Source of the DNA: Paramacrobiotus metropolitanus
Taxonomy: Eukaryota; Tardigrada; Eutardigrada; Parachela; Macrobiotidae
Direction of reading: 5' to 3'
DNA length: 64,000 nt
NCBI RefSeq assembly: GCF_019649055.1
Contig: NW_026570232.1
Coordinates: 1,674,001-1,738,000, forward strand
The translations under genes were made by a program, and so were the position numbers. Positions 1-53,400 of this stretch are shown here, in pieces. Position 1 is the first letter of the stretch, and every line of letters begins with the position of its first letter. The notes below the pieces were generated by a model, which did no database searches, was not told where the DNA came from, and was given only the letters and a program-made list of their open reading frames with translations.

Positions 1-3000
1 TGATCCACTCGGATCACGCCATAGCTCAGCGCGCTCATGGACAGCACACCGCGCCCCGTACTGCTCCCGGGCACCGATCCCGTCCCCGGCCGCCGCAGCG
101 CCACCGTCAAGGCTTCGGGGGAGGATGCACACGGGCATACGACTTCCGGTCGCAGGCCTTTGCACTGGAAGACGCTGACGAACTGATCGCACGATGTCAG
201 CGACCCTATGCAACGAAGAAGCGTGTCATTGCCGGTGTCGGCGGAAGAGTGAAGGAGACTTACAAGGATTGCCGCCGTCCGCGACGAGGAGCATCCGCAG
301 CGAGGATAGATTGACATCCCGATGATCCCGCTGCGCCAGGACGCCCCAGTGGAGATCGCGGGATTTCACCACGGCCACCGAGGCACGGAACTTGCTGATC
401 ATCAACATCCACGAACCGGGGTTAACTTTCATCAGGGCGTATGGGATGAAGATCACATGCAGGCGGTTAGCTACACTCTGCAAAGCGAATCAATCCAGTA
501 AAATTGCATTTTGCATTTTTACAATACTGTATGTATAAACACAAATGCAGCAGTAGTGAAAATACCTCAGAAAGGTAACTGGCAAATACTGTTTATGTTT
601 AATTTTGCCATATCCTGTCACTGATGACGGATTATTACAAAATACAGATTACTCATGCACAAAACGTCGCTGAACACCACGAGAGACATAGAACCAACCA
701 AAAAGCATTGCGAGCAATTTTCCAGCTACCGGTATTTTTATTGCAAAAACATTTAATCTGAGCAACATCTTATCACTGAAAATGTCCAAACGAAGGAAAA
801 GATTCTCAGATTTAGTGGATGCAATTACAGCTGCCACAAGCCCTTTCGCTACGTTACGTTTGATATCCTGAGAGTCTTTCGTTAGAAGCTAGCGATACGC
901 AGACCGGTACAAACAAATTTCCAATTCATTGCAAAATAATCACTTCAAAACACTAAAAACACTGCTACACGACTGCTTAAAACGAATTTCCACATGTTAC
1001 ATACCGCCAGAACGGAATGCCACAATCCCAGATCCCGTTTGAAATCCACCACACAGACCATCACTTCCCCGTCGGTGTATCCACACGTGGCCTTCAGTGC
1101 CCGACAGTGACTAACCATGGCGCCTCGCGATACCGTGACCCCCATGACACTTCCATCGCGATCCGAGGTGTATTCAATATACGCTGGCAGCTCATCCTGC
1201 AGCCGCGCGGGTGGATCCCAGTCTCGCGGCGGTTTCGCTAGATTATCCGTCAGAAACCACTGGAGCTTCGGCCAGCCTTTGAACGGTACAACTTCTCCGG
1301 TCGGCGTTTTAGGCAGACCCTTGAAGCACGCCTCGGATGTTACGGCCATCTGGACTCCGCAACTGCCCAGAAAGAATCCCACTTGCTGACAACCGGCGTC
1401 CTGCACGAGAAAAAATTCACTGCTGTTTATTCAACGTTCTTGACGAATACTGCAGCACGATCCAATAAGTGCGATTCAATCGTGGGTGTCAAAAATTATT
1501 AAACACTGCCAACACAACGTTTCTTATAAATAAATTATTAAAATAAACAATTAACAAATATTGCACAACACAACGCTAAAAAAATTTTATACATGGCCTA
1601 TAACAAGACAAAGCAAGGAAAGCTTCGCGTCAAATACCTTAATCGATTACAACGATAACTGTCAGAATATGTAAGGCATAAGGGAAGTAAGTATCTATCG
1701 ATTCGGTGACGCCCATATACTACGATTTGAAACAAATTGATAAAAGCAGGGTACAGCAACTTGCCCGTTTGGTCAGCGGAACTTCGATCATAACCGGCAC
1801 CACACCGGCCATCAAGCATCCATAAAACGCACTAATGAAAGAAATCGGATCCCCGTTGGGATACACTAGAACCACCTGCCAAAGCGAACACAAAACTTCT
1901 TCAGCTGAGACACAACATCATTTGCACTTCTGAAATTTACCCGATCTCCTGGTTTTATCTTCAATGTCCCGTCTCGCTGGCTTGTCTTATTGAGCAACGC
2001 ATAACTGATTTGCTGAGCACGACGCAGGAGTTTGGCTGTAAAATTTATATTTCAAATTATTTTCTTGAAAGGTTGCCACAAAAGAAATTTTGCGGCAATA
2101 AAAATAAGCAAAAAATGTTTGCCAATTTTTCAAAATCTAACAAGTATGCACGCAAACGAAAAATAAAAATGGGACACAGGGCAAAAGCAGCTTACAATAG
2201 GTTAAATGCGATGCCAAACGTCCATTGACATCCAGGACGGTCAGTGCCGGCGCCTTGGGAAAGGAGTGGGCGTGCTGCTGCAGTGCCTGCTCCAGCATTA
2301 CCGCCACACCGGAAGCCGGCTAAACACAGCGCAACAGTTACTCCGCACTGGAAAACGAATGCTGCATTCCCGCGCACAATGCTTACGCTGAGTCGTTCAC
2401 CCACGAACGGTGTCACCGTGTTCCCTTCAGGTTTCGGTGCATTGGGATTGACTTGATTGGCCGCAACTGGAGAGCAACACGCATAAATAGGTCAAGCGAC
2501 AGAGTATGGACAAACACGGCAGTTTCGGTCAATATGCTCACTTTCTAATTCCAGATCGTCGTCCTCAAAATATTCCGCCAGATTCTTGCGACGCGGTTTC
2601 TTCAGGGTGGTGAGAAGTTGTTGGATCTTGGCAGACACTTTACCGTTACGCTTTTCTGTGCCTAAAAAACAAGTCAAAAAATAAAGTAAAAATAGTTTTA
2701 TCCAAATTCACAGTCAACTGCTCTCTTATAAGAAAAATCCAAGAATCCAATCCAAGAAACGCGCTAGTAAAAAACTCTGAGCAGAGAATACCATCCAGTG
2801 TACAGGAAAGGCAACAAATATGACTAGTGCTAATTATCTTGTAATTAAACTTACGAGAACTATAATACTTGAAGAAGCTTTCTGTTAGACTGTTACCAAT
2901 ACTAATATAGGAATGCGTGTGATATTCAGATTGTACGCATCAATTACTAGCAAAAAAATAAACGATGGGTGGGTTATAGAACTTTTGATTAACAACAACG

Positions 3001-15000: not shown

Positions 15001-18000
15001 AAGTATACAAATTAAAACATAGTTCGATAAACATTGCCATCAACTACTACGTTTTTTGCAGGATTCTATAATTTTTTAAGACGTGAACCAAGGTTTCGTA
15101 ACAGTATCTTAATGGTTCACAAGAGCAGCATGTGCGCAATTTTTATCAGCGTCTAACCGCCTTCGTAACCTATCCCGTCCGCTGCTATATAACAATGTTC
15201 ATAACCACGAGCACAGATTTTGAACAGAAAATACGAGGATATCCGTAAATCGTACCTGAAGAAGGAGGCACAGGCGGAAGAGGGGAAATATTAAAAGACT
15301 GTAACAATTTGGCTTTCTTTTTGGCAAAACCTTTGTCCGTTAGATCACCTGAAAAAAATAAGGAAGAATCGAAAGAAAGTTCTCATGCATTTACATACAA
15401 ACACAATAGCACGTGCAACAATTAAAGCAGAAACACAGAAGCTCAGCACGCAGCATGCCATGCGGACATATTATTTCAGATAAGCACAATGAGGTTTAAT
15501 CGCGACCAACCTGAAAATCTCCATTTTTCATGTACATAATCAAAAGATAGCGTCGCATAACAAGCCAAGAATTAGGCACAATTTGAAAGGTCAAAATGGA
15601 GTAATTAAAAATATGTCACACATCTGCTTCAAGGCCGATAAGTCTCTTGGCCGGTTTTGAAAATGTCTCACAAAACGGCAAACACGCAAGGCATCGTTAT
15701 CTGTGCGTCTGACTTTGCTCACGCCAACGGTCAGATAAAAATGGCAAAAATACGTGATTATCAGCACGACAAGGGCCATGGCCACCACCTCCGTCCGACA
15801 CCAGTCAAAACAATTTTCTTCGACTGTAAAACGCCTTTAAGAGGGCAGTTTGAACAGATGCCCGATCCGTAAATCATGTTTTTACACTTCTAAATGCGGT
15901 ATGCTAAGAAATTCCTAGCGAAGCCCTAAGTGAGACGTCGTCCACTACAGAGTGGACGATGACACACAGATGAGTATTTTCTTTCCATCCAGAGCATCAA
16001 TCTTATCCTTTCAAACCGAATAGCTCCACAAAAATAGAAACAAAATTTAATTTTCAGCGCAAAATTTTGGATAACATCATAGCTCCAACTTCCAGATGAT
16101 GAAATTCAAATGGCAAAAAAACAATTTTACAGCCATTTGTACTATGTATCATGCCAAGGAAGCGTCTGCAAAAAAGTTTGTTCTCGTCTAAAAAACGATG
16201 AAATCAACCAAAAATACGGACCGATTATTACTGCAATTAAAAAATTAAGATGAATCGATATCAAAGAATTTTAACCGAGTAAAGGTGCATCTTTATGAGC
16301 GTTTATTTATTCCCAGACGCACAAAACATCTTTCAAAAAATTGTATATCGCGAAAAAAATAAATCAGAAATAACACAAATGCGAATTTTTTTTTAAAACC
16401 ACTGCTTTCTGCTTTGTGCTCTTCAGCTTGCCTAAAGCGGACATATAAAAAAGCAATCTACAGTTTTCCTGATTTTGTAATCACCATCTCAACCGTTTTC
16501 TTCAACACTTCACAGGCCACAAAACATGCTATTCTCCACCGCACTTTGCCGAGTTAACAGCCGGCACCCTCTCTTGAATCCGAGGTCTTATCGTAACGAC
16601 GAAGTAACCAGCGGAAAAGCAAACAGAGCAGAAATACACACATACACACATTTCACCCCGATAAACAAAACAAGCATAAATGGCCCACACAACTCTTCAC
16701 GTACTGTCATAATACTCTTAAGAAAACACGTGCGATGTCACTATGTTATACGGGATCGATCTGCATTCTGCGCCACTCCATATAGCTCTAATCTCAAATT
16801 ACATAATAACAATTTAATGTCAAAGCCAACGGAAAGCCTTTCGCATTGATGAATTCCTTTCTTATTCCCTCTGACAGATCAAATGGGGACATGGAAAATG
16901 ATCGCCTACCATCTCGGGAGCGAACGGGATTCATCAGAACTAACTTCAACATACTATCAAAAAAGTGCTACTTTTCAACATCGGAGACAGGCACACAGAT
17001 ACACAACATTAGGAATTTTGGATACCCTTCGCGCATAAGAAAAACCACCGCTGCTCACTAATGAATTGCCATTATGGGAATCAACATACTTTATCGGACA
17101 GCAGCTGAAATTTGAATTTATAAAGTGAAAAATCAGATTACGAAATTTTTTTTACAGAAGCTATAACTCTTATTATAGGTAACTGCAACGAAACAATAAT
17201 AAACGGAAAGAGAACATACATGATATGAATCTCATCTCATTATAAATGTGCTGGGAAACAGTTTTCCTATTAATTCCATTCTAATTTTCAACGGGAGATC
17301 ATTCGTGCTACCAGTCTCCAAGTTCGTCAGCCTTTAACAATCCAAAGAGTAAATTGTTTTTTTAACTTTTACAAACCCGCTCGCGGGGGCCAACTAACAC
17401 CAGCAGCGTGGCAGAGTCAACAAAGATGAAACAGTGTCTAACAAACAATATATCATGCTGCATGGCTAATTACAAGCCGCTTCCACGCCGGCATGAGCAG
17501 CAGCCGGTCGGAAAGCGCTTTGTGCCACTGCAAAAGCACATCGTTAAGCAAACGGTCTCTCACATGCAAACGCGTAAAAAATAAACAATCAAAATTTCAC
17601 AAAGGGTGCAGGCGAAAAAAAAGCGTTGCGCGGCTCGAATGGGCTTTTTATCAGCACAGCAGCCAGTTCCGCGCGATTTCGCTTTCACCAGTCACAAACG
17701 GAAGGAAAAATCTACTGCGCAGCGTCCTGCTGTGTCCATTAAAATTTCACTGTTACTAGAGAATGAATTTTTAACGAAAGAATGCCGGTAATAATCAATA
17801 AACACTTTCCAAAAACGCTTACGCAGAAAATCCTTAAAGAAATCCTAATTTCCAGTGTGTCAAATTTCCACCTGAACCGACACATCGCAATTTAAACTGA
17901 AATAAAAAATTAGAATCTCGATGAAAATTGTAAGCAGCAATTTTTAAGCCAAAGCAAAAAAAGCTCGCGAAGCAGCTCAGCCGACAACAAATACAATCTC

Positions 18001-18363
18001 CGTAGCACATACACTACGGTTCCGGTTCTCACCTTCAGCTAATTCCAGCTCCAATTCGGCCAATTTTTGGCGCACTTGTTCCGGTAATGAGGAAGAATTG
18101 CTGTCGTAATTAGCATATGCCTCCATATCCACATACATGGACACCGGAGCCGACACAGAGCACAAATTGGGATCCAACTGGCCGTTTGTTACCGCAGCCA
18201 GATCGGATGGTGTGGATAATGATTCTCCTCCTCCCGTCGTCCGACCGGATCCCCCATTGCTAACAGCTGTAGCTGTGAGGCCATTAGCATCACGTCCCGA
18301 TAAATCAGCTGCCATATTCGCACTATTTGTATCCTTGTCAATCCGCTTTAACCATATATCCAT
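1..18363 (-). CDS. DIP2: DIP2 (disco-interacting protein 2), N-terminal half, 3' end outside window
   Basis: DIP2 proteins carry an N-terminal DMAP1-binding domain followed by two acyl-CoA-synthetase-like AMP-binding domains; the family is linked to lipid metabolism and neuronal morphology. Thirteen coding exons join in phase: 18363-18033, 15348-15256, 6228-6136, 4901-4500, 3862-3737, 2661-2542, 2466-2387, 2319-2196, 2035-1941, 1875-1765, 1400-1005, 477-264 and 205-1 (about 796 residues; the family is about 1,570). The first exon ends in the DMAP1-binding motif LAELELELAEG, continued across the splice by DLTDKGFAKKKAKLL. Later matches to the first adenylation-like domain are VSAKIQQLLTTLKKP, VVLVYPNGDPISF, VGFFLGSCGV, AYIEYTSDRDGSVMGVTVSR and SLSSLRMLLVADGGNPW. 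The start is the first ATG of the open exon; MAADL, 17 residues later, is an alternative. The exon 10/11 intron has a GC donor. The identity is certain; the exact N-terminus is less so. Confidence 0.95.
6229..15255 (-). other. 9.0-kb DIP2 intron 2
   Basis: AT-rich intron separating the exon at 15348-15256 from the short in-phase exon at 6228-6136. Open frames in it are under 150 codons, have no convincing splice partners and no recognisable product. I see no nested gene, tRNA or intact transposon. Small palindromes occur, for example around 10411-10434. Confidence 0.6.
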
Positions 18364-20729
18364 CAAGCTAAAATTACAGATTTTCCCAATTTCGCCGACG
18401 ATGGATAGGAAAATATGTGCGCTCTCAAATGGCTAGTTTTTCACGATCCGCAAAACATCCTGCAATAAATGGGATCTCCACCACGCTTACGCACAAATCG
18501 AAAAACAAGAAAGTTTAACACAGAGAATCTGTAAAAAGCCTGCAAGATACAGGGAACACAAATAACCGAGATTTATCGATCACCATGCGTACCAAATAAA
18601 AAATACATAAATTATTTTAGTCCAACAACCTGCAAAAAAAAGCAAGCTGCATAAAAAAAATCTTAAAAATAAATAGCGAAAACGGATGGCCTTAGAAACT
18701 GAATGAAAATACGAAGGAATGCATTTTACTCAGCCGAGTCGATATGGCAGACAGGGTACAACTAGCCCGTAGCAAGAAATTGGCACACTCTAGAAAGACT
18801 TCCTTTCGACTGTTTTTAGTCGCAAGAGCGTGATGAGCTCATTGCGAAAAAATTAAGCACACTCAATCCAATCATCACATATTTCCGTTAGGCAATGAAA
18901 TTTCTTTCATGGGCACAATTGGGTAGGGCGAGACGTTATTTTTCAATTATATGCGATAATCTAAAGAAAAACTGCACCGGCTTTAAGTATGGTCAACGCC
19001 GCAATAAAAATCAACTTGTTTCCCAATAAATGCAATAAAGACGTCTGGACCGGGTATTGAAAAATTGATTTTTCAATTTCGGTAATCAATGCAGATGTAG
19101 GTCAGCGACACTTTCGACAGTTTTTCCTTTTCCGTTCTACTGTTCTTCACTGAACATCAAAAACAAGGAGCGAACTAAAAAGAATTACCGTTTTGCTGGC
19201 TGAATAAAAAAATATTAATAAAATGCAAAATAACCGCAAAATTCGTCGCACTACCTGGTACATACCATCAACAAAAAAAAACATTTACGATAATTTTCTG
19301 CATCCTACCGTTCCTATTTTATCATACTTCCGGATTATAATCGCAACTGCTATACGAGTACATTAGACAGCTATCGATAAAGTATTTTCTAATTTTGTAG
19401 GGATAAAACCATAAAATTTCTAACTTTGTAGGTAACAATAGTATATTACGTAATATTTTTACAGCGTCGCGAATTCCGATTCAGTCCCCCCAATGCAACA
19501 TTTATAAGCAGCATTTATGAGAAGTTAAGAACTTAAAAAATGCAGCGAGACAAGTAAAAACTGTAATTTCTAAACTAATGTCATTTCAATTCGACGATTT
19601 CGTAACTGGATCTATAGGCAAATCAGGAATAACACAGAGTTCTGTTGAAAGCTTGACTGCCTAGAAAAATTGCCATAAAAACGGAAAAATATTTAAAATG
19701 TGTTAAAGAAAGGAAGAAGCAAATACCTGACGAGATGCTACTGCAGCATCGCAGTTTCGATAATGAGCTTTAAATTCTCCTCATTAATATTACCATGAGA
19801 GACGCCGCCGAAACGCCGTCTAATCAGTGCTCACAGCTCACTGAACGAATTCCGATAAGAGACCGAGATGAGTCCAACTGCACAACCAGCAAGGTTCGTG
19901 CTTAATTATCCCATTAAAAAACGCTTCCTTACAGCTTGCTAATAAGGCAGTTGGCGTGCTGTTGGACAATTATCACTCATGCATCACACAGGTGGAGAAA
20001 GGGGACAAAAGTTGCAGGAAATTCGAGCTACTCTTGAGATGGGCAAACAACTGAGTGGCAAACTCGCTGACGCATCCGATTATTAAGGCACTCGCAGCCA
20101 ACAGTGGCAAATGTATGCCATGAGAAATCACGAGGCAGGGCTGGAAAAATATATGTCTTTTTGGCGCGATAAGGTCAGTGTCAACAAAATCTCCATTCAG
20201 AAAGCATCCCTAGAATGCGCATCGCTATGTCGTAAATAAAATCGGAAATGGCAACTTTTACAATTTACTGTTGATAATTTTCGGGCCATACAAACACAAA
20301 GAATGGACTGTGTGTGCTTGATGGACCACGACTGACTGCGGGTTGGCTAGCGTCTTTGGTAAGCCGATACTGCCAAAGCCAGCGAAAGCCTCCTCCTAGT
20401 ACAAACTTCTTAAACTTGAAGCGTAAAGAGTAAAGAGCGTAATAAACTGAATCAAAAAAATGAAACTTCACTAATTAAGTCAAGTGAATGTTAAATGTTA
20501 TAAAAGTATCAGCTAGTAATTGTACCGTCTGTACTAATCGTAATTACTAATTAGTTAAAAACATGTTCCAAAATGCCGAAAACAATAAACGTCGAAAATT
20601 GATTTCAGACATTTTGTGCTTTCTGTTTCAAAAGTATAATAAAAATTTCGAAAATTTCTTCGAAATTTTGTATTTGATATTCTGAATTTTAAAAATTATT
20701 GTAAGTAATGCACCGCGGTCGAATTGTGC
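18364..20729. other. Upstream region of DIP2, no gene seen
   Basis: AT-rich stretch between the DIP2 start codon and the tRNA gene. It should contain the DIP2 promoter and 5' UTR, but I cannot identify a TATA box, UTR exon or start site with confidence. Open frames here are short and lack codon or splice support. Confidence 0.4.
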
Positions 20730-21944: not shown

Positions 21945-24900
21945 ATGCCGGCTAAGACTTCGGTGATGCGAGAAGAAAGCGATTTGGAAGAGCACGAAAG
22001 AGACGAACTCGACAATCTAGATGCGCGCCTGCGACGCGCCGAGCAAGCTTACCAACGAATACTCCACAGCCTTAACATAGAGCCCGTTCCGAAATTCCCA
22101 AAAGACGTTCCTGATAAGAAACGGGATCACAGGATTGATGGCGCACCCCAACATTCCCCAGATATACGTCCGCGGTAGGATTAAGGAGCTTACGTCAATG
22201 CATGAATTTTAAGCTGATGTTTAGTTCTGTTACAAAAAATTACCGAAGATTAAAAATTTTAATAAAGGAGTACTATCCTGTCTTTTAGTAGCTTGAAGTA
22301 TTTGTAGATTGGATTCCTCTATGGGTGCAACAATGATGAGGCGAAAATGGGAAAGCCAGAAATATTTTCCTTTATTTTTAGGATTTTAAAATTGCCTAAC
22401 TACGATGCTGCGGAGATTGTCCAGCGCGAAAGCAGTCCGCCTGCCGACGGTTTAGAACAGTATGCGCGCTCGAAGGCCCTCGTTCCTCCGCTTCGCTTCC
22501 CATCCAATCGGCAGTCGCAGGACGACAAGCTGCAAGTGATCGAGGAGTCCAATCGCTCTGAGCGGGATATCCATGTCAGCGCGCTGCGGAGCGCCCTCCG
22601 CCCGGTCCGGCTGGAACGCCCCGTGTGGATTCAGGAGCACCCTCCTCCGGAAGTGGCCGATAACGGCAGTAACGGTACGTGTGAGTGTGCGACTGCAAAA
22701 GAAATATTCCCTTGTGGCGTAGCAAATTGCAGAGTGTAGTTACTGGATTCTGGAACTTTCTGAATATTTACTGCTTTGTTTTTCGGAAAATGTCCTTATC
22801 GTAGTTTATCGTAGTTGTAGTCATGAATGCATTTTTATTTTTTTACCTAATCAAAACAAATAAAATCTGGGAATAATAAACACTCTACAGTAATCCAGTA
22901 AAACAAATTTTAAGCAATCGTGCATTGCAGTTTTTGTTGGGAAGTAAATTTTTTATTCTACCTGCGTTTTGTATTTCTTCAGGTATATCCGCTCAGCCCG
23001 TTCTTTCGTCCGGTCGCCATGGATCCAGCTTGGAAAATGGCGTTTGTCCAGCTCCGCGCAGTAATCCTCGTGATCTCGTCAGGAATATTTTTGCCGGTTA
23101 CTCTCTGGAATATCCCAACGGGAAAGCTGCCACCCCAAAATGGCAGAAGCAGCCACCCCAGATAGACAGACCACTCCAACAAGCAGTCAACTCCAACAAG
23201 CAGCCATCCCAGATACCCATTATCCCAGTTCCAACGAAACCTCAAAGCAGCGGAGCATGGAGCGGCTCGTTAGATTCTCCATCGTCACATTCCGGGAGAA
23301 GCTTGAGCAGCAGATCTTTGAAACTTCCGGTCAGTAAGAAGAAACCGGAAAACAGCGATAATGGTAAAGAAAAGCCTGTGGTTAAACCAGATTCACAGGC
23401 GTCGGATGTCGACGACGATACGTCCAGTCACAATACATATATTACCCGGTCGAAATCCGTGCAGGATTTGCCTTCGGTGGGACAGTCTGTCCGTAGCCGG
23501 TTGATCACGGTTCCTCTTCTCAAGCCCGCTCCACGAGTCAGCCAACCGGTGTATCGCCGCTTCCGCGGAAGGTTCGCGCTAATTCATATTACGATCTCTC
23601 GTTGAAAACTTGAAAGCTAAAGCCAGCGTTGTGTGGTAACGTTGAAGTATCGTAACCAAACGGCTCAATATTTCCGATATCAGCTGAGCGGAGAATTTAC
23701 CTGTAGTGATACGTATTACGTAGATTGTTATAGGGAATAGCAACAGTACAGTTTCACTTTTATTGCAGACACATTGTAGGTTGCGCACTATTCGTGCTAC
23801 ATATTGGGCAGTTGATTTCTTTGGTTGTTGATTTCTATAGTATTTCCAGTGCTCGTAGTGTGATGGTGTTTAAACGCATCATACATTTAAAAGTGTCTGG
23901 TTATAGCCATGAGAAATATGAATAGAAACAAAAAACCTATAATGTTCTCGTACAGTATTTCAACTTTTTTTTCATGTTTAGGTCATTAGAGCGATATATG
24001 GCGGAGCGCGCTGAGCGCGAGATATCGGATTTAGAAGAGACCAAGCGACAGTTCCGCGCTCATCCTCTGCCATCGTGGATCCATGAACAGCGTATGAGAG
24101 ATATGAAAAGTGAGGAGCAAAAGCGGAAGGAGAGAGTGCAGAATCGAGCCAAAGAGATGTTGGAACAGGTTAAGCCTTTCGAATTCCGGGTAACTAAAGA
24201 CCGAAAGCGAGTGGTTAGTGAGGGAAAGGGGAAGAGTGTTTCGGAGAGAGCCGAAAAGAAGGAAGAGCAGAAAGGAGTTGTGAGAAAGAGCGTTTCGGAA
24301 AGGGGAAGGACCAGAACGAAGGGTGTAGCGGAAGCTTTCAGGTGAGCATGGTTTCGTTGTGCTTTTTTGCAATTTTGTCGTCTCGCTGTCTTTGATTGCT
24401 ACGCCGTGTTACAGTTGCGAATTTGTTGTACGTCTACTGTAGTTTCCGCTTTGTTGATGCTGCGTATTGTACAGCTGAGATCTCTCATCTGTTAGTGCGC
24501 ATATTATCGTAGTGTGATGGCAGTCGCAGTTTGCGCTGTTATACTTTCATCTTGGAAATAACTGTCAGCTGCACAAAAGTTGAGCTATGATTCACCGGGT
24601 ATGACTCATTTTTTGCAGTTAATGCAGTTTTTTAATCGGTACGTAAATATTTCTAATGTAAGCACCTTTTTTAATTAGTCTCTAATTGTAAGCCGAATAA
24701 ATGCGTTAATTATTCTGCTTTCAGGGTGACCGTACCCCGCACTAACTGCCACAAGCATCTGCCGACGGCGCCCACTTTCCAACCGCACATCAACCACTCT
24801 GTTCCGGATTTTGCACGTTTGCATGCCAAACTGGACCGGCAACGGGAGGATCGACAGGAGAAGAATTTCACCACGGTTCCGCGGCCCTTCCATATGAATC

Positions 24901-28188: not shown

Positions 28189-31100
28189 ATGATGTTCCAG
28201 TTCGGTGATAAGCCGGTGGCCGGTGTACTGGCAGTGGTGGTGCTGGGATGTGTGGTGTGTCTGAGTGACCTTTCCGTGGCGGATGCCGACATCGGGGTGG
28301 GGATGCGGGCGGCACGGCGCGGCTTCAAGAGCTACGGTCTGCAGACGGCGCGCGGATTCGGCAAGCGGGCACAGGATGCGCAGGACAACATGGTCAGTGT
28401 TGACGCCGACTGGCTGCGGGCGCTCCTCCAAAGGTACACAACTACGAACGGCATACCGTAAATTTGAGTGGTCAGTTTTCGACTGGTGTTACAATTAGAG
28501 CAATCTTTGAAATTTATTGCAGTAAATGTAGTGCGTTGGCATGTTCTTGCAAATTATTCAGTCGTCAGTTCTCGGCAAGTAGCGGGCAACTTTGACATTC
28601 ATGTTGCCTTCACCAGCAACGAAAGAATAACATTTTTAGAAGTAGTTTTTAAAACACCTTGGTCGCAATGTTATTATATGGTTGTGCACGTTATGGATAG
28701 TCTAAGCCTTGCAACAAATTTATCGCAAAAGTATGTTTTTCACTTTCCATTATAATTTACTGCGATACACGGCAACAGCATAGACAGATATCCACACTGA
28801 AGAAGCAATCACAAAATTATTGCTAAACGTTTACATCGAGGTTTCCAAGATATACACGGATTATAAGTTTGTTGAATTAATTTATGGTTATTACACACCG
28901 GCAATTTCACCCACACTACAATAAAGTTCTCCTTAACGATCGTATTATAAAACCAATCCAGTAAAGTGCCTTAATCAACCTTTTCCCGGATTCGGTAATT
29001 ATTGATTTTCTACATACCCGACAGCAAAAGTCTGCACGTGTTCGATCTTCTTAAGCAATTCTGTATGCGATAATTGTTAGCATCTTTCTCACGCTGTCTC
29101 TGTCAAGAACTATACACTGCAAAAAATTTGTCGTCCCTAATTGGGACAACTACGTGGCGCCGTCGGCGGTTGACACTGAAGGTGATGTGGCGACCATTCA
29201 AAGGTCAAATTTCCAGGCTACACATTTCCTTGTTTTTATTCGCTTCAGCAGACCGGGATTCTGCCGTACGGCACCTGGACGCCGCCGGAACACACGTATT
29301 ATAAAGGCCGCTAAATCTTTAACGAACCGGTCGCGTGTACACGTGTATTGTGCAAGGAGAGTTGATTAACAATTGCAAGTCAAAGGTTAAAGATTTCCGC
29401 TGCACAAGCGACGCAGTGCGTAATACTAATTTTCCCAATAATCAGTTGCAGTCGCGATGTTCCTCCCGGCTGCTAAGAATTAATTAACACACTACAATTC
29501 TGCTGTTACAAAGAGAAGGCGTGTAAAATTTGGTGATTATTATATCTAGTAAACACAAATTCACCACAACGATAAACCCGCTAGTGACCTCCACAAATAA
29601 AGCACCTCACAAAATTAATAACTTCTAGTGTAAAATTGATTTTAGCATTATTAATTAACTGTGTCACCGCGGTACTGTTACCTAACGAAAAAGTCCATCA
29701 AATTTGTCAGTCAAAGAAAGGCGTTACAAATGTGTTCACACATCACTGCTTAAAAACCATATGGCTGATTATTTTAATTTGTACATATACATTTTCCGTA
29801 TATCGAGCAAGACAAATGTACGTATCTGAATACTGAATAGTTCGCACTGCCTGTTCACACTGTAGCAAATCAAAAGCAATAATTATTTGCCTTTTGTACA
29901 AATTGACAAACAACATTTGTATTGAATAGCGTCTCACCGATTTCTAAAAATTTTGAACATTTAATGTCTTTGATCTCGTAAATTTTCATACCTATAATAT
30001 ATGTACCCAATAGTCAATTGTTCCTTAAAGAATTTGATTTTTTATCCATAATAGCGCACAGACAACGCAATTCTGTTAATGGAATTTTTGAACCCGTTTT
30101 GAGTGTTTTCTATTAACAAATTAAATGTTATGGTGGATATTGATAAAACTACCAATTATCGCATTTGCTGATCAAAGCGGTATTCTGTAGCTTAAAACCA
30201 GATAAAAAATTATTGGAATAATTGCGAATTTCATTGTTTATTGTAGATGTAACATTGCGCCACTAAATAGAAGCTTAATCAATAATCATAGTTTTCAAAA
30301 ACAAAATTATAGTGGCATTTCCTAGGCAGCACACAAATAAATTTTTCTATCAGACAAACCCAGAATTACGGCGCTATATAATTTCTATTGACAGAAAATG
30401 CTAAAGGTTATTTATCTTTACGATGAATGTGCGTGATGACATCCAATCACAACACCATCCATCCGCGTAATTAAAGTCTTAATTTCTCGGCACTGAACCG
30501 CCGACCGGTACGAGTACAATATTCATGTGCCAGTTGACCGCAGTTCTGTACGTTAGCCTTTCGATTGGCAACGCCGTAAAGCCGCAGTTTTGTTCATATG
30601 GAATGTGTTCCAGGGTTTCCTTACAGGATCTGGAAACAGATCGGTAGATGTTGTTTACCCGAATAATAATGCACATGGTGACGAATTCGATGTGTTACAG
30701 TACTAGTATATAGATATACGGCTTAATTGATTTAGCATATACAGAAAAACGGTCCACGATATCGTAAAACTAATGGACCCCATAATGAGTTTATATTCTT
30801 GTACAGTATAGACCAGCAGACACCTATGTACAGGGTACCCATCACCCATCATTCGCGGACAAAACATGTATTTAATGATACATTTACCATTCCACTAAAG
30901 GAAATTTTGCGTGCCCCAAAGTGTGTTATAGAAGTGTGTACACAACTTTATGTACGACTTACGATTATATCTTTTTGCATAAACTTGTTTTACGTTGTCA
31001 ATCATAATAAACACAAGGTAGACGGCACGGGTATTTTGCTTTCCATATAGTGAATAAAAGAGATATCGACAGATCAGTCTGGAATAATGGCATAGTCAGC

Positions 31101-39988: not shown

Positions 39989-41944
39989 ATTAGTGCTTCT
40001 TTCCTTTGGCATTTACTACGAAAATATCGACTATCCTGAACTACGTATTGTACTATTTAACTTGTGACCGTTTCCTTTTTTTAAGTTTCCCACATCAACT
40101 TCCGCAAAATCGAATTTTGAATAGATAAGCAAACAAGTCTGTGTCTCTGCTGATTTATCTGTACACCGCTACACGCAATTATCATGAATCATGTATAAGA
40201 TTTTTTTGATTGTTTTTATTGTTGTCGTGGGTTGTAAGGAACTGTTTTTAATTTTTCAGTTGTGTTTGTGTTTTGTGAGGTGATTAAGCCTGTATTTATT
40301 GCTCACAGATCAGTTGGATAATCGCTGCATCCGTTGTTCCGGCCAGTGCAGATTACTTATATAATTAAGAGTTTAAGACCGTGCTTGCCATAAACTTTGT
40401 TAGCTGTCCAAGTGTCCAGTCTCAGTAACCGATCATGGGAGGATGCCGACGGCCGTTGGACAGCACGGAAGGCACATATTAAAGTGAACAACAGTCGGCG
40501 TCTTCTTTTTCGCGGATTGACTGGTAAATGCCAATGCTCCGGGTGTTGTTTTTAATGCTAAAAATTCCCATAGTATGTGACAAGTTGGTAATGGAACGAA
40601 AACATGTACGTGGCCCAACGAACGGAACCGGAACAACTTGCACGAGCTGCGAAATGATTCTAATAATACTGTAAATTAAGGAGAAACGGAGAATACTTCA
40701 CGTTTGCATTTGTGGTAACACGACATATTAACTGTGAAGGTTTTCACGATTTACATAGCTTAACTCTAAACGCAGTTTAATTACGGGCATAATTAAGCAA
40801 AGTTGCGCGGCAAACTTTCCGGGATATTCCAGCTGCATTTTGACTCCATTAATTAGACTTAAGTTTTTGCACGAAGATCATAGATTTTATTATTCTTATA
40901 CCAAACGCAGATATTAAACGCGTTGGAATACTGATTGCAAGTCCGCAGCCCTAACTTAACATTGCTGTTTCGTCAGGTTTTCTTGTTAAAGGTCAATGCT
41001 TTCTAATTGCCGCTAACATGGCCAGTTCAACGCTGCAATATGTGTAGATATACTGTAAATTTGTAATATGGAGTAGCTACCGGTATCACTAAATCACAGC
41101 CGTAATTAATCAATGGGCAATCTACGTCCGACGCCGGCTTGTGTAAATACGCAGCATCTCGTCGACCCTGGTGACTTTTCCACAAGAATGTCACGTACGT
41201 AGTATCGGTGGAAAACGTTAATGTTACAGCGCATATTACCAATTTACCATTCCTGGCCGCGACGGAGGAATACTTGTATAAAAACAATCACCACAGCATG
41301 GTTTCCTTTATAATCGTAACTTTTCCGCACCAACGGCCACACCACCGTCCGCGTTTGCGTGCCCAAAGTATGCTAATCTCCCACTCGAAATGCGTCACGG
41401 TGTCAATATTGTATGATATTTTTGGCGCTGGCATTACTATCGCACCGTTTACCTGGATCGTTACAACACTTGTTGTCGTGCTACTCCAGTGTACACCGCC
41501 GCGCACTTGGTCGCCGAAATATCCGGCCACGCTCCATTTAAAGCCGCTGTCTGTTTATGCGATAAGACAGTGGAATCATTTATTAGCGTGCTGATTTATT
41601 TATCTGGTACACGGCGCTGTATGTGACGCATCGATTATGTGAGCCGTATATGCTGCGTATATATATCGTGACAGCACATCGGCGGGAAACAACGGCGCAA
41701 TTGTCTTATAATGCGCCATACTCACACTTGTGGTTAATGATTAATTGTTTGGACCAGATTTGTTGCCGGATGCGTCAGTCGCACCTATGCCGTTATGGCT
41801 GTGTACATGTGTCTGTAATTGGCCATGCTGTGGTGCACGGTGTCGTTGTGTCAATAAAAAGTCGTGCCATCACTTCCGCCCGAGTGATTCGAAGGTGATA
41901 ATTTGTCGTGATTTCGATGATCTACTGTTGATGCTGCGCTGATA
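39989..41944. other. Intergenic region upstream of the 75-aa peptide gene
   Basis: No supported gene. From about 41040 to 41900 composition is more balanced, and overlapping open frames occur on both strands without splice or family support, suggesting regulatory DNA. A TATA-like CAATAAAAAG at 41852-41860 lies about 90 nt before the next gene's ATG. Confidence 0.4.
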
Positions 41945-44900
41945 ATGATCGACAATAGAATTGTGGCGTGGATAGCCGTGGCGTCGCTGATCATCTGCAC
42001 TCTTCTCCCCATTGCGACCGGCGTCCGCTATTATCCCAAAAAGAAACCGTAAGTACGCTTTGCCGGTAGTGACTCGGACTTCTATGTGTCGGGCCAATAC
42101 CGTACCAGAATCTTTTAGAAATATTAATTCAAAATATAGTCTTTGGAATATGATGCTGTTATATAATTCCAAAAATGAAAATCTGGCCTTAGTGTCAGTT
42201 TTTCTCGCTTTAATATTTTTTAATATGGCATGTAAATATGATAATTCTAGCATTAGGATGTCTAAAGTATTCACGAAACCGAATATTTGATACGCCACAT
42301 AAGAAAATATTAAATACCCTAAATACGAAAATGTGGTTTCGTAAATAAACTTTGGGTTAGTAGTTAATACTTTCCTGGATGTAATGCAGTATCAACTAAA
42401 ATCAGTAAGATGAAATAAGCTCGCAAATACTACAAAAAAACCGAAATGTCGTGTTTGCAGTTACAATTGACAGTGAACTGTATCTGTATGTCACTTTATA
42501 GAAGACATAAGGTCTCAACATTCCTGCACAAATCTGCAACGATATACATGGGCAGAATGCTCACACGTTACAAATTCCTTAACCACGCTTTATGGTTACA
42601 GCCAAGCGCTTGAGGTCAACCAAAATCATTCCTATATTTTGAGTGTTGTTTTAGGGATTCAGAAAGAGTATTGCACCATCCCAAACATTTCATGCTGCGA
42701 CTGACGCGAGTTGGCGGAAAGGATCATATGCATTCGAAGGTGGGGTAAGTTCAATAATCATGCAAATATGTGCATAATTAATCTTACTGCACGCGTACAC
42801 AAATAAAACAAATAGAATCTGCATTTGACGGCATATGAGTGACGAACGGCGATATGTACAATTATTTCTTTCATAGCCAAACTGTAACAGAAAACTGCAA
42901 CGCAAACACGCAACGTTTTTGTGGCGATTTGACAACTATGCTGAAATCTCCAAATGCACCTTAAGTTTAAACATAGTAAATAATTTTTAATGGAATACTG
43001 ATATTGTATTGTATGTCAAAGCTGATGTATAGCAATTGAACTAAACAAAAACATGAAATGCCCAGATCCGTTTCTGGCTCTACCCTACAGTAACTACTAT
43101 CAAGTACTTACTATAGTGTAGTGTACTTACTATCAAGGAAATAGATCTATATTATGATCGGCCGCCCCGTGGAACTTGGCTAGAAAAAACCGCTAAGCAA
43201 ATTAAAAAACCGATTTCACCATCAAACTCAGCATGTTCCAAAAGGGTCCCACATGCATTTTGTTTTCAAAAATATCTGCCCTGGACCATCGCTCGGATGC
43301 CGGTACCGGTACAGGCATCAGTTCAAGGTGACCTTGAAAGACCTTTTACAAAAAACACTGTTGCGTGGAGCAGCTAATATTCAAATGCAGAGTATGTAGT
43401 AGAATAAAAAAAGCTGTAATTTGTTTAAATAAACTTCGAAAAATTTTTCAAGTTTGTCGCGTTTCAACAAAATGCACTAAAGCGAAGAAATTTTCTTTTG
43501 GTTTTCGGAGCCGGAAAGCGCTTTCGCGCTGGACCTTTTTAGCTTTTCTGCGTTCTTATACATTGTTCTCTGTGCATCACAAAACACTTAGATCTACAAT
43601 AAACATAAAATTTAAAATTAGCTTAAATACCAAAAAAGTTGTTTGGTTCGGTGAAAACGATCTCAGTACTCATACTGCGGTATGCTCACGCGTTTACATG
43701 AAAATTTGGGATAAGATAAGATATCGATTCACAATGAGGCTTTTGCATGAATGCCAGGTGAATGCATTTAAACATTTTAAAATTTTATTCTCCTAATATC
43801 TCATAAACAATTTCCACACCGATGTATAAAGTACAAATCCTTTGGCTATAGGATGATCATTATGAAAGGTATGAAACCAAAAAAGTGTTTGAGGATGCGA
43901 AAGCGAAAGTTTGCGAACGTATTCCTAATTACCTGCATAGTCCTTAACTTCCTTTACATATTAGGTAGAAGGCGAAATCGCACTTCGTCGTGGTAGTGAG
44001 AAAACAGGCAGTGTCTCAGCATAGTTTGCAAGCGAAAGTTTACTGACCGTGAATTTTCCTATGCAATGAAAAACTCACTGACCAGACCGGCATATGTGAA
44101 CGGAACCCAACGGAACCCTTGCCCAGCACCCACTGTTCGATGCTAACAAAGTTCTTGAGCTGTCGAATGAACAGAACCGCACAAAGGTTACACTATCCAC
44201 TAACCAGACCTACCGAGTTACAGGAAACATACTGACCGTCGATCAGGCCGGTAGAGTGAACGGAAGCTCTAGTTTCAGGGAAGGAATATTATCTTAGTGT
44301 TAGTGGCTTAGACCAGATAAGAGCAGAACCGTTATCATTGTCCAGCACAACGCTAATCCGGTAATCCGGCTGTCAGCCGAACAGAACTGTGCAAAAGCTG
44401 GCATGTCTATCAATCTTACTAAATAAAGGGAACGGTGGCCATGGTCCGAGATCCTCAATTTACCACCGGCCTTACCACCCTTTACCACAAACAGTGTAAC
44501 CGCGAGGGCTAGTTTTTATTTTGTTAGTGGCTATTGCCAATAACAAAAAATGTTAACTAACGAGTGCCGGGTAGAACGACATCCCGTGTAAATGCAAACG
44601 CCATTACATTCTTAAAATCTGTCAGAAACAATCGAAATTCAGAAAGACAACCCACAGGTCATACCAGTGTTTAGGTATCACTAATCAGGGCTGCGGCGTA
44701 AACGGAAATTACAGGACCCGCTATTGCTGTTACTAATGTTTGGTGGCTAGGACAACGTGATCTCTGTTGCTCGTTATCACTACACACTCCTTGCTGCCGA
44801 CTGAATGAATGGAATTATAAAAAAAATTATCTGCCGACCAAGCCTACTGATTACTGAACAAAGGATCAAAATTGGTTTCCACGTGTCCTCGATCACAATT

Positions 44901-45564: not shown

Positions 45565-46990
45565 AATCGACCTTTTTATATGAAAAAACACATCCTTATT
45601 GTATATAATATGGACCCTCCTCGATCATAAAACTACAGATTTGCTAAATTTAAAATTCTGGGTTACGAGTATTATAATTTGAACAGCAATAGCAGCGGCT
45701 TTTGTAGCATCTACGGCTGGGGCAACTTTACTTGAAAATTTCAGTTTTGTGTAATTTTATACTACACATGCAGAGTAAATCGCCTTATGGAGCGACTGAG
45801 AGTTTTCGTTTTCATGTACGTATTGTAGTGTAGCGTTTTCTGATTTTAACTAAAACGTATTGTAGCGTTTTCTGATTTTAACTTCCACTAGGAACAAAAC
45901 ACGTAGGTAGTAGGTACATAAACAATTAATAAGTGGTATTTTGCTGCAGCACCTGGAAAGCGGCGCCGACGGTGATACGATGACGTGAAATGTGGACACT
46001 CTCTCTCGAAGCAACCTGAATCTGCACAATTTGTTTTCCGGGTTGTTATATTCAAGAGATTTTTCTAATTAGAAGACACGTCACACTGATTACCTGTTGA
46101 ATGTAACACACATGTGTTGTGTACATTAACACTTCTTCAGTTCTTACTTGTTACATTTGTAGAATGCACGGTAAACTCAAAACCGAACTGTAATAAGTAC
46201 CAAATGTCTAATGTTGCACCCGCATCGGGTAAATAACTCGTTTTGAGATGATTTTTTGTGATGTTTGATATACTGATTATCCGTTTTAGTATATTCAGCG
46301 GTTTATTATATGATTCTTGTATTGGAACGCTGAACGTACCCTCTTTCTCATTAATTTGGGAATAAATATTTAACGAATTATCTACTGTATATGTACATAA
46401 TAATAGTTCTTAATATTTTTTTCTGGGTTGAATTGTGGCAAAATAACCCAAAACTCTATACAGAGTGCAAGCAGATAACTCGACAGCATGGATATGTTAC
46501 CGTTTACGTTTGTATAAGATTCAAAACCTAATTAACATATGTACTTTGATGCGATACATGGTACAGCTAGTAGCCTAGTATTAAGTATATATAATTGTTG
46601 TATAACTGTTTTTATTTTTTGTCAGGTCACGGTAGCGGACTAACAGCATGAAATTCTAAATCTTTTTTTGTAGAACGGTAGCTAGTTAATTGTCGGCTAT
46701 TGTGCCTGCTTATTCGGCAAGATGATATTGTACAATATGCGCACAACTTAAAACTATAACAGCAGAACAGATACAAATTTCTTTAATAGAATACAAATCT
46801 TTCCCCGCTTATGTTACCATAGCAGTGGCATCTCGGTTACATACAAAGCGGAAGTTGCATAACGTTGCGCCGGCAGCTATGCAGTTCGCTGTACAATTCA
46901 ATTACACCGATATCAGTGCGTGGCACTGCGTGCTGCTCGCAGCTAGGCGCTCCCACATGACCAGCCCCAGTGACAAAAAGACCTTTCTTC
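45565..46990. other. Intergenic region between convergent peptide genes
   Basis: No coding exon is supported. AT-rich and containing a short direct repeat at 45818-45883. No AATAAA close to either stop codon; TTTATT at about 46611 could serve the minus-strand gene. Confidence 0.4.
45818..45883. repeat. Direct repeat of about 30 bp
   Basis: ACGTATTGTAG...CGTTTTCTGATTTTAACT occurs twice in tandem; the first copy has an extra TGTAG. Recent slippage duplication 250 bp beyond the stop of the 75-aa peptide gene. Confidence 0.85.
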
Positions 46991-48100
46991 CTATCTTTTG
47001 CGGCCCACTCGCGGACCGCTCAGCTTGGACTTTTGACTGGTGGCGGCATAGTAGACGGGTCGTGGTCGCAGCGCGTAGGCCAGAGGATCGGGATTTGCCG
47101 GTGGATATTCGCTCCTCAAGACGCTCATGACCAGTGCGTCGAAGAAGGGCAACGGTGGCGGCATGATCTGGCTGTCTCTTCCGGGTGCGCTGATCGCTGC
47201 GCTAACGCGGTTCACCTGATCTGCGAAACAAACTACATATCTTGGCTCATCGGTTTCAAATGAATTTCCAGTACTCAATCGGTGTAATACGATGATTGTA
47301 CGCACTGTAAATTTATAAAAATAGCGACGAACGGTCAGCGAGCTCCGCCTTTGTTCTTACTTACCATTATCCTATACTTACTATAGTTGCAGAAATCCCT
47401 GCGGCTGTATATGCGACCGTGTATGACATAATAATATCTTATCGTATAACCTATCGATATGTATACTCGATTGTTACAAATCTTCAATTTGTCAATTTTT
47501 ACGTTATAGGATTTTATGATTAAGTAATTAACAACCGGACGACAAATAATTTTGCAATTTTCTCAACTACAAATGTGCCTGGCATGGGCATTTTAGAACA
47601 CAACTGCCACTATCTGTACCAGTCCCCTGCCTGCAAGTGCTGCCATGAGAGGAAGTGCGGAAATGTAACATAATGACATTGTGACCTTTTCTCCAACCCC
47701 GGGTATTTCAGTTAATATTGAATACGTCACCGGCGTGCACGTGTGGCCCGCTCTCAAGAAAAAAGGAATGAATATATAATGGGAAGCAAATGACAGAAAC
47801 TGCGCATTCTTTAATATGCTAAAAATAAGAGGTCAAAAGTGTGGTTCTGAGATATCCTAACCACACTTTCAAGCAGAATATCTGTTTAACCGCGCTGTAT
47901 AGTGTGGACATACCTCTTCCCGCGCAGCATATGCTTTGCTGGCGCAGTGCCGCCTGCATGGGGAATTTGTCGAATTTCAGCCAGTTGCAGCCTTGGAAGC
48001 TCGTATATTTGCATCGCATTTGCAGTGGATGCACGCGAACCAAACAGACAATCGCCGAATAAACGCTGATTAAGAAAAGGTCACTCTTTATCAACAGCAT
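46991..48100 (-). CDS. Putative secreted cysteine-containing prohormone, 138 aa, unrecognised
   Basis: Two exons join in phase: 48100-47914 (donor AGAG/GTATGT) and 47220-46991 (acceptor tttcgcag, TAG stop), with a 693-nt intron. The N-terminus MLLIKSDLFLISVYSAIVCL is a signal peptide ending near VRVHP. A short Cys domain follows, RCKYTSFQGCNWLKFDKFPM and then QQSICCAGR; its four Cys sit near residues 30, 38, 58 and 59. A Cys-free tail rich in Pro and Tyr follows (EYPPANPDPLAYALRPRP). The protein ends KSKLSGPRVGRKR, a classic amidation and tribasic cleavage signal that would release a short ...GPRV-amide. This resembles the PRX-amide ending of CAPA, pyrokinin and ETH peptides, but the rest matches no family I know. 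Exon 2 alone is strongly coding (GC-rich, open to the stop). Confidence 0.68.
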
Positions 48101-48848: not shown

Positions 48849-48982
48849 TACAATGGACGCCACTAGTAATGCGGTTACACCGTTAGCCGATAGCGCTATG
48901 CATACGTATGCATAGCGCTATCGCCTATCAGTGATCCAGTCACTATTATTCCAGTGTAACCACATTAGTGACGTCCACTGTA
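48849..48982. mobile_element. 134-bp palindromic MITE (Tc1/mariner-like)
   Basis: The whole element is an imperfect palindrome. Its ends are TACAATGGACGCCACTAGTA and, on the other strand, TACAGTGGACGTCACTAATG, both continuing into GCGGTTACAC/GTGGTTACAC. The flanking TA dinucleotides suit a TA target duplication and CAGTGG resembles a Tc1/mariner terminus. The centre, 48888-48923, is a perfect 36-bp palindrome (CGATAGCGCTATGCATAC and its complement). There is no coding capacity. Confidence 0.82.
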
Positions 48983-50446: not shown

Positions 50447-53400
50447 ATGGATGCCAAAGCGAGAGCAAGTTTATTACAGGTAAGAATTTCCTGGCCATTG
50501 TGACTACTCTAATCAGACATCGTTGGAGGAGCCTTGCCTTCTTTCAGTTTAGGGGAAAAGAGGAATTTCAGATCTGTGGAGTGAAAAAATTTTGTCAGAA
50601 ATTCGTAATTGGAATTAATTTAATTAAGTTCAAACATTTTTCTTAAATCATTGGTGACAGCTGATTTTGGTAGCTAAATATTTTGAGAAATTTCTGATTA
50701 GCTTTCAGTTTCGTAAAGGTAAAATTCGTGCAAAATAATGAACCTTCGAAAAGAAATATATATTGTTTGTTACGGTTTGTACGTCATTTCCTCGCTGTTT
50801 TCAGTTTTCATTAGTCATTACTTGTGCAGATTAGTTTTGTAGCTTTTTTGTAGTTTTCTGCGGATTTATCGTTTATGTAGGGAGTGTTTTTGCCTTTCGT
50901 TGCGATTGCATCATTATGAAAATTAGTATTCAATTTTGGTTACGAGTCTTACGACATGTAATTGCTGCTGAATCCACCTTCTTACCAAAAAGATGCAGTT
51001 TGCGTGAAAAAGAAAATGTTTAAGTACACAGAACATTGATTAAGAGTGAAAGATTGAGAGTGATTGTAGAACAGTGACGCAGATCATCTGCCTGATTTCT
51101 GCTGTACTCTGTAGTGTGACACTCTGGCTATAGAAGTATGCAGTTTTCGAAATTTTCATAGGCAGACTAAAGGTGCGAAGGCCTACACATTTTTTTAAAA
51201 TTTGTTGACCACAATAATTATGGTTAAGAAATTAATTTCAAATGACAACAATTTGTGTTGTCAGTTTGGACGTACAGCTTTGTCATGCAAACACCGGGAA
51301 GGGAATATGTTTTCCTCTTGGTAATTGTTATGGTTGCTGTAGGCTATCCAAAAGGCCTACGAGGAGGATAAACTGGAAGAGAAGATCCGCGCGCACTGGG
51401 CAGCACACGTACCGTCGCTAATAACACCCGGACCGCAGCCCATCAAGTTGCAGTACGACGATGATCAGCTGAGCGCTCTGCTGCTGGAACCCCTCGAAGC
51501 CTTCATCATGGGCACCTTGGAAGTGGATAATAAGTTTGACGCGCTTAAGAAGAACGATATCCCCACGTTCCTCTGCAATCGATCCTTTCGTGCTGGTGAA
51601 CCGACGTATTCGTGCCGGTAGGCGATAAACTTTTTTTGGGTATTTTAGTAGTTATCGGTACTCGTTTTTGGAAGAAGTCTGTAATGCCTGAGTTTTTTCC
51701 GGATTGCATCGAGGATTGGGTTTATTATTTTCTATGTTGAAAATTGAGATGCCGCATTCCATTACCATTAATGATGCTAATTCTCTGGTTTAAAAATGAT
51801 TTATGCATTTCAGAGACTGTGCAGTGGATGCAACATGTGTATTATGCATAGAATGCTTCAAGCAGAGCACCCACAAAAATCACAGATACAAGGTACTAAA
51901 AAAATTGAGATGAAGTCAGGTAATTCGAACCGTTGTTTTATATTTTACTGTGGCGGGAGAATTTCGATCATAGATGAGTCAAGCACCGGTGCATAAATTT
52001 GGTTTTGTAGCCGTGTTGTTTATAAATGAATGTAGGTGAAAATCTTGTTTCCATAGTTGAGTATGACACGTTTTTCGTTTTTATGCTTGAGCGATTAAGC
52101 AGTACATCGAAATCCCATTACGCACTGCTTTCCACAGATCAGCAGCTCATCCGGGGGCGGCTACTGCGACTGCGGCGATCCGGAAGCCTGGAAGAAGGAC
52201 TGCGCGTGCTCCCAGCATGAGCCACCGGATGGCGCGGGACCCCCCAGCATCGACGTGGACGACGCCAAGAAGCGTCTGCCCCGGGACATTGTGCGCCGGT
52301 GTCACGCTGTGATTCCCTGTGCTCTGTCCTATGCCTACCAGTTGTTATGTCTACGGGATGGCGAAGGCCTTTCTGATGATCTGTTGTCCCCGAAAAGGTC
52401 AGACAAGAAACTGTGTTTCTGTAACGACGCCGTAATATCTAGGTGGGCGTTTTACAGGGCGAAAAGTGAGGAAGAGGAAGGATACGAGTTTGCCACTGTG
52501 CTCTACAATGATGAGACTCATACGTACGAACAGGTATGAATGAAAATTATTTAGAACCATTTCAAAGTATTGGAGGTGTTTTGTGAAAGGACCGATACCC
52601 GTACATGGACGCGTTGTTTACCGTTAACTATCTGTAGATGCAGGTTTACTGAGAGATTAATTTTTCGATGTTATCGTAGTATCGTGACTTTGTGGATAAT
52701 TGCTGCTACTTCTAGTCTTCCCATACGACACCGCTGAAATTCTGCTGTGTAAAATTATTTTGTTATTTTTCCATTTGGGCGATTCTGCCGCTTTGTTTAG
52801 ATGTGCTGATGTTGCACAGTTGAAAAAAAATCGATTAGTCTAATGCTCTCATGCGCGAATATCACGAATTTTTAGTTTTTCAGTTTGGCTTTATTGTATT
52901 TTGTTAATTAAACGAATAAGCATCTTTTTGAACTCTTTAGACAACTTGCAGCATGCTCATGATTTTGGCCGTCCCTTTGCAGGTGATAAGCACATTATGC
53001 AGAACACTGGAATGTAATCACGAGGAGGCTCTCGAATACGCAACCGTCGTCGATCACGAGGGCCGGAGCCCTGTCAAATTTGGATCTTACGCCGATTGCG
53101 AGCGCGTTAAAAATTTTATCGAAGTATGTGACGAAAAGCGAAACAACTGCAGTTGCTTGAGACTCCAACAAATAGATACAATAATGTTTATTTTGTAGCG
53201 AAATTCGAGGCGTCCGCAACCGTTACGTGTGGATATAATTCCCACGCTGATGTACGCCCATCAGGTCTTTGCTTTAAAAGTGATGAACTGGATACAAAAA
53301 CTGGCCGACTCATGCGGTACGCCAACAAATTTTAAAATCGTGGATTTGGTTTTGAGTTTAAACTTTTACTGCCATGACCGGAGGCGCATTTTCGTAGATT

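Follow-up and report, generated by a model that had tools for sequence, protein, structure and literature searches.

A candidate two-exon gene for an orphan amidated protein hormone in the tardigrade Paramacrobiotus metropolitanus

Introduction

We report a two-exon gene model from the tardigrade Paramacrobiotus metropolitanus whose predicted product of 138 residues combines a signal-like N-terminus, four closely spaced cysteines and a C-terminal amidation motif. That the model corresponds to a real gene is, we believe, probable. That this gene is single-copy in P. metropolitanus and encodes a secreted, amidated polypeptide hormone or neurohormone is a reading we hold to be evenly poised between right and wrong. 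The model lies on the minus strand of the window, by which we mean the whole 64,000-nucleotide stretch of contig NW_026570232.1 that was analysed (positions 1,674,001 to 1,738,000).

Tardigrades are panarthropods close to the arthropods and serve as models for anhydrobiosis; to our knowledge, functional work has been done on few of their hormones. A 2018 survey of tardigrade precursors by Koziol reportedly lists allatotropin, ETH, pyrokinin, trissin and others, together with four novel candidate families. If our reading holds, an orphan amidated protein hormone would give a new point of entry to the signalling behind moulting, reproduction or desiccation in these animals, and would allow one to ask whether PRX-amide ends originated more than once.

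Results

The first coding exon (47914..48100, minus strand) opens with an ATG at 48100 in the context CACTAAAATG, encodes a signal-peptide-like segment (residues 1 to about 19-25) followed by the four-Cys segment, and ends in phase 1 at a donor in which GAAGAG gives way, directly after 47914, to GTATGT. The GT-AG intron of 693 nt (47221..47913, minus strand; GTATGT...TTTGTTTCGCAG) closes with the acceptor TTTGTTTCGCAG directly before 47220, where the exon resumes with ATCAG. The second coding exon (46991..47220, minus strand) supplies the Pro/Tyr-rich part, the C-terminal SGPRV-GRKR and a TAG stop that finishes at 46991. Joined in phase 1, the two exons give a coding sequence of 417 nt and a product of 138 aa, MLLIKSDLFLISVYSAIVCLVRVHPLQMRCKYTSFQGCNWLKFDKFPMQAALRQQSICCAGRDQVNRVSAAISAPGRDSQIMPPPLPFFDALVMSVLRSEYPPANPDPLAYALRPRPVYYAATSQKSKLSGPRVGRKR. 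The two exons with agreeing phases described in the initial annotation were thus recovered exactly at their coordinates, with a phase 1 join across a GT-AG intron of 693 nt. In GC content the exons, at 49% and 60%, stand above both the intron (39%) and the flanks (41% and 37%).

The open frame that runs into the acceptor of exon 2 (47356..47221) holds no in-frame ATG, so that exon 2 needs an upstream exon unless translation begins at an internal Met. ATGs at 48330, 48317 and 48231, in the 300 nt upstream of the proposed start, all fall outside its open frame, and inspection of the open frame immediately 5' of 48100 found neither a good acceptor nor an alternative ATG. The latter observation argues against a different account of the model, one in which a pair of unrelated open frames, or exons from some other source, have come into phase by accident; we regard this account as unlikely, and the codon and shuffling results below bear on it from both sides. 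Past the stop, pattern matching places a candidate poly(A) signal, ATTAAA, at 46782..46787 (minus strand), about 200 nt downstream of the TAG, with further AATAAA matches of the same kind at 46616 and 46307.

The predicted protein has the features from which a prohormone was first proposed. A hydrophobic segment occupies residues 8-21, with an 11-residue Kyte-Doolittle mean of up to 2.44, and corresponds to the signal-like N-terminus as originally described; its n-region carries K5 and D7, and a small-X-small cleavage site is not clear. Four cysteines outside this stretch (Cys30, Cys38, Cys58 and Cys59) bear out the earlier count of four in about 30 residues, while Cys19 falls inside it. At the other end, the SGPRV-GRKR reported as an amidation site is present directly before the TAG, and places a Gly and then a basic convertase site immediately ahead of the stop, as in amidated precursors generally. 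The motif occurs once in the 138-aa chain, and because adjacent basic residues occur nowhere but in the terminal RKR, canonical processing would release no short GPRV-amide. Judged from the translation, the likeliest product would be the whole basic four-Cys chain of about 110 residues, amidated at Val134; depending on where the signal is cleaved, the predicted amidated chain measures 109-115 residues and 12.2-12.9 kDa, with a pI of 9.7-9.9. A shorter amidated product could nonetheless arise, because single basic residues before the C-terminal end (for example in LRSE, LRPRP and QKSK) might in principle be cut.

To assess codon use, we built a synonymous-codon score from 23 GPCR-matching stretches without stops in the same genome (16,218 nt in total, GC3 0.66). 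They were drawn from 30 GPCR loci that were cut out, of which seven with internal stops were omitted, and include several close paralogues. The hydrophobic composition of GPCRs should not bias this score, because it conditions on the amino acid. In bits per codon, the score is 0.054 for exon 1, 0.117 for exon 2 and 0.087 for the full coding sequence, with GC3 values of 0.63 and 0.68 in the two exons against 0.66 in the training exons; across the window, the 333 stop-to-stop ORFs with 60 codons or more have a median of -0.18, and the training stretches, scored by their own model, span -0.11 to 0.52. In a 40-codon scan along the exon frame, two groups of centres were positive, one from 48040 to 47920 and one at 47170, 47110 and 47080; the centre at 47140, between members of the second group, scored -0.04. 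Scores were negative at and above 48070, at 47890, and from 47290 to 47200. Codon use is therefore coding-like in both exons and drops near the proposed boundaries, and this rise and fall is not what an accidental pairing of unrelated frames would lead one to expect.

The codon test indicates a coding-like stretch, but it leaves strand and frame unfixed, because both exons are overlapped by competing ORFs with coding-like scores. The one over exon 1, in antisense (47829..48062, plus strand), reaches 0.11, above the 0.054 of exon 1 itself; the one over exon 2, in another frame of the same strand (46902..47201, minus strand), likewise reaches 0.11. To this extent the codon data also leave room for an accidental composite. 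Scored over their full stop-to-stop length, which adds non-exon sequence at the ends, the two ORFs of the model rank 66th and 93rd of the 333 (-0.05 and -0.09). Elsewhere in the window an allatotropin-like ORF scores 0.19, an AMP-binding ORF 0.13 and a UBR-box ORF 0.07, while a FAM161-like ORF (23926..24345, plus strand) and a DMAP_binding ORF (17977..18432, minus strand) fall outside the 40 best scores and thus at or below 0.01. The score overlooks some real exons, and a value of about 0.09 is therefore suggestive, not decisive.

How often such an architecture arises by chance was estimated with a scan of both strands of the 64-kb window for models that join a signal-like ORF beginning with ATG, in matching phase across a GT-AG intron with a pyrimidine tract, to a terminal G-basic-basic-stop; the scan was repeated on first-order Markov shuffles made in 1-kb blocks. 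The candidate is the only model that passes in the real window. Shuffled windows yielded at least one model in 0 of 20 cases when products of 80-250 aa were admitted, in 14 of 200 at 60-250 aa, and in 73 of 1,500 in a later run. Taken by itself, the architecture thus has a p of about 0.05, a generous figure and a lower bound, because the scan criteria were set after the finding had been seen; that some 5% of shuffled windows produce a comparable model is a point in favour of an accidental join. Against such a join, only three of the 74 chance models from the 1,500-shuffle run are at least 130 aa long and none reaches the codon score of 0.087, although this last result is partly an effect of composition, because GC peaks are smoothed when the sequence is shuffled in 1-kb blocks, which lowers chance codon scores.

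Looser forms of the architecture argument carry no weight, because 121 of 200 shuffles pass the looser scan. In the real window that scan admits the starts at 48231 and 47679, which share the 3' end of the candidate, as well as a minus-strand model at 42824..41870 and a plus-strand model at 50738..51628, the latter overlapping, in another frame, an ORF that we take for the beginning of a UBR gene. Ends of the G-basic-basic-stop type number eight in the real window, against a mean of 4.5 and a maximum of 9 in 20 shuffles.

Searches for relatives found little beyond the gene itself. With the 138-aa product as query, neither Pfam families nor PDB sequences gave a match at E<=10, and collections of viral and prokaryotic contigs held no relative, as expected for an animal gene. 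A search of the P. metropolitanus assembly (169,799,020 bases, 533 contigs) recovered the two exons, at 91% and 97% in alignments that overrun the splice junction, and one further match at E 5.3. This match, in C52, was judged to be chance: it is a local alignment of 52 residues at 33% identity in which the Cys pattern is lost. Separate queries of the same assembly with the Cys part and the C-terminal part returned the gene itself only, and a single genomic site, the candidate, fitted a degenerate DNA pattern encoding GPRV-GR-K-basic. By sequence comparison, then, the candidate is an orphan relative to the collections searched (Pfam, PDB, its own genome, and the viral and prokaryotic contigs) and appears to be single-copy, no second copy having been found in the searches run. 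Because these collections yielded neither homologue nor paralogue, there is no evolutionary constraint to cite on its behalf, and the absence of a homologue from them is likewise compatible with an accidental join. In the literature, where coverage is thin for subscription papers, the precursor is not named among the matches listed.

An orphan of this kind might also be a small secreted Cys protein that is not a hormone, such as an antimicrobial, a cuticle protein or a gland product, its terminal GRKR being incidental. A basic, Cys-containing chain with no second copy found and no dibasic site to excise a short peptide would fit such a protein, and one terminal motif is weak evidence, since such ends arise by chance. 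A terminal Gly with a tribasic run before the stop is, however, a typical end of an amidated precursor, and no Pfam family resembles the product at E<=10, both of which count against this explanation; we think it rather unlikely.

Discussion

The C-terminal PRV raises the question of whether the candidate is a diverged member of the PRX-amide families (ETH, CAPA, pyrokinin), in which monobasic cleavage would free a peptide such as VYYAATSQKSKLSGPRV-amide to act on an NMU-type receptor. The single basic residues noted above would permit such a cut in LRSE, LRPRP or QKSK; Arg-Pro bonds, however, are poor cleavage sites, and there is no dibasic site ahead of the peptide. The short peptides of the CAPA/periviscerokinin and pyrokinin/DH families have an upstream cleavage site; in the candidate the only dibasic site is terminal, and the single basic residues ahead of the end could serve as one. 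These families also carry an aromatic residue before PRX (FPRV, FxPRL, WFGPRX), which is absent from the KLSGPRV of the candidate, as is the FFLKxxKxxPRX-amide core of ETH; directly before PRV there is thus neither an aromatic residue nor an FFLKxxK core.

The putative PRV-amide end itself does have precedents. The locust peptides DGAETPGAAASLWFGPRVamide and GLLAFPRVamide end in this way (PMC4237046), and among the matches listed the string GPRVamide appears in three locust papers, this one included, and 'GPRV-amide' in a beetle haemolymph paper; ETH and its receptor are reported from tardigrades (PMC6660194). Beyond the PRV, however, similarity does not exceed the level of shuffled sequence. 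With PRV held fixed and the 18 upstream residues aligned, the proportion of 2,000 shuffles that scored at least as high as the candidate was 1.0 for both Nasonia and Fopius ETH, 0.15 for locust DH, 0.21 for locust PVK and 0.49 for locust PK; with both ETH peptides the candidate scored 15, and its shuffles about 17 on average. On this test the likeness of the candidate to pyrokinin, CAPA and ETH peptides appears to be no more than the PRV tripeptide accounts for. A joint ETH/DH/PK/PVK query matched nothing genome-wide, the candidate included, an empty outcome that is uninformative. Overall, we consider membership of the PRX-amide families quite unlikely. The initial annotation had proposed a new or lineage-specific amidated prohormone, and this part of its claim still provides the best reading of the sequence; the accompanying suggestion of a short PRV-amide linked to CAPA, pyrokinin or ETH finds no support, given the lack of an internal dibasic site and an alignment at shuffle level.

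A parallel in overall form is offered by the CHH/ITP hormones of arthropods, which are secreted Cys-containing chains of at least about 70 residues that carry a C-terminal amide and are not cut short. The candidate resembles them as a predicted secreted Cys chain with a putative C-terminal amide and probably no cutting into short peptides. It differs from them in having four cysteines, spaced C-x7-C-x19-CC, rather than six, in lacking any Pfam match at E<=10, and in its Pro/Tyr-rich C-terminal half. We entertain, tentatively and as the less probable side of the question, the narrower idea that the candidate is a hormone of about 110 residues with two disulphides, specific to tardigrades or to Paramacrobiotus and unrelated to CHH/ITP, ETH, CAPA or pyrokinin, whose PRV-amide evolved independently.

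Other precursors share single features with the candidate. Elevenin has two close cysteines shortly after the signal peptide of a secreted precursor, but the two elevenins printed in PMC5831470 have a DC-x8-CRG core and no amide, whereas the candidate has C-x7-CNW and an amide predicted at the far end; an elevenin identity was rejected on the absence of that core. HanSolin precursors are 88-139 aa long with one amidated peptide at the C-terminus, and most polyneopteran ones end in GQPLRW-amide (PMC7179676); the candidate would end in SGPRV-amide, and with no C-terminal PLRW/PLRF-amide motif in the chain this identity too was rejected. CNMamide and ITG-like identities were also set aside, as the candidate differs from the peptides printed in PMC5831470. 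Fliktin and iPTH were considered as well, and these rejections do not extend to them. In gene layout, the two small exons of the candidate are comparable with the tardigrade PDF precursor genes, which comprise two exons (He-pdf-2, He-pdf-3 and both R. varieornatus genes) or three (He-pdf-1), with exons of 35-225 bp and introns of 98-1107 bp (PMC11879619). As far as its sequence allows us to judge, the candidate belongs to no family that could be compared.

If the candidate is indeed a secreted, amidated hormone or neurohormone, its maturation and action can be outlined. Once the gene is transcribed and its message translated, the N-terminal hydrophobic segment would route the chain to the secretory pathway and then be removed, and two disulphides among Cys30, Cys38, Cys58 and Cys59 would fold the N-terminal half. 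The terminal RKR would be trimmed by a furin/PC2-type convertase and a carboxypeptidase, and PAM, the amidating enzyme, would convert Gly135 to an amide on Val134. The product released would be the whole basic chain, about 110 residues long with a pI near 9.8, not a short peptide; it may then act on a surface receptor that needs the amidated end for recognition, in the manner of other amidated protein hormones.

The surrounding window and genome

Several other features of the window were read alongside the candidate. Two minus-strand Pfam matches that lie below the Pfam cut-off, one to AMP-binding (945..1430, E 2e-5) and one to DMAP_binding (17977..18432, E 0.002), together suggest a single gene, which we take to be DIP2. 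A FAM161-like match (23926..24345, plus strand) also falls below its Pfam cut-off. A UBR box ORF (52099..52539, plus strand) scores above its own, and the translation of a second ORF (51343..51621, plus strand) reads as the N-terminus of the same UBR-type N-recognin; the ATG of the candidate lies about 3.2 kb from this N-terminal ORF and points in the opposite direction. At 48849..48982, some 750 bases 5' of the candidate's ATG, a short element with inverted ends, TACAATGGACG... and ...GTCCACTGTA, was seen by eye; a repeat search there returned only an inner palindrome (48878-48933) made of two 28-nt arms without a spacer, 89% complementary. From its sequence the element looks like a small inverted-repeat transposon.

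Observations on other signalling genes were made along the way. A single-exon ORF at 28189..28461 (plus strand) reads as an allatotropin-like precursor of 90 aa, with a signal-like start, RR-GFKSYGLQTARGF-GKR and the codon score of 0.19 given above; no Pfam model matched it at E<=0.01. This ORF first led us to assume an insect host, a reading dropped in view of the GPCR and DH31-like results that follow. Seven exon matches to Glyco_transf_20 on three contigs (C67, C84 and C208) then fitted P. metropolitanus, for which three TPS-TPP genes are published; COX1 (PF00115) gave no match in the genome. Elsewhere in the genome, a hymenopteran peptide query gave a weak match (E 0.007) to a DH31-like exon, KKAIDLGLGRFSSGSRTANGLLALDSANFAGG, at C45:680601-680723 on the minus strand. 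Class A GPCRs are expanded and clustered, many of them single-exon: 147 scored matches came from 1,939 first-look candidates, with clusters at, for example, C54:675000-876000, C138, C113 and C260.
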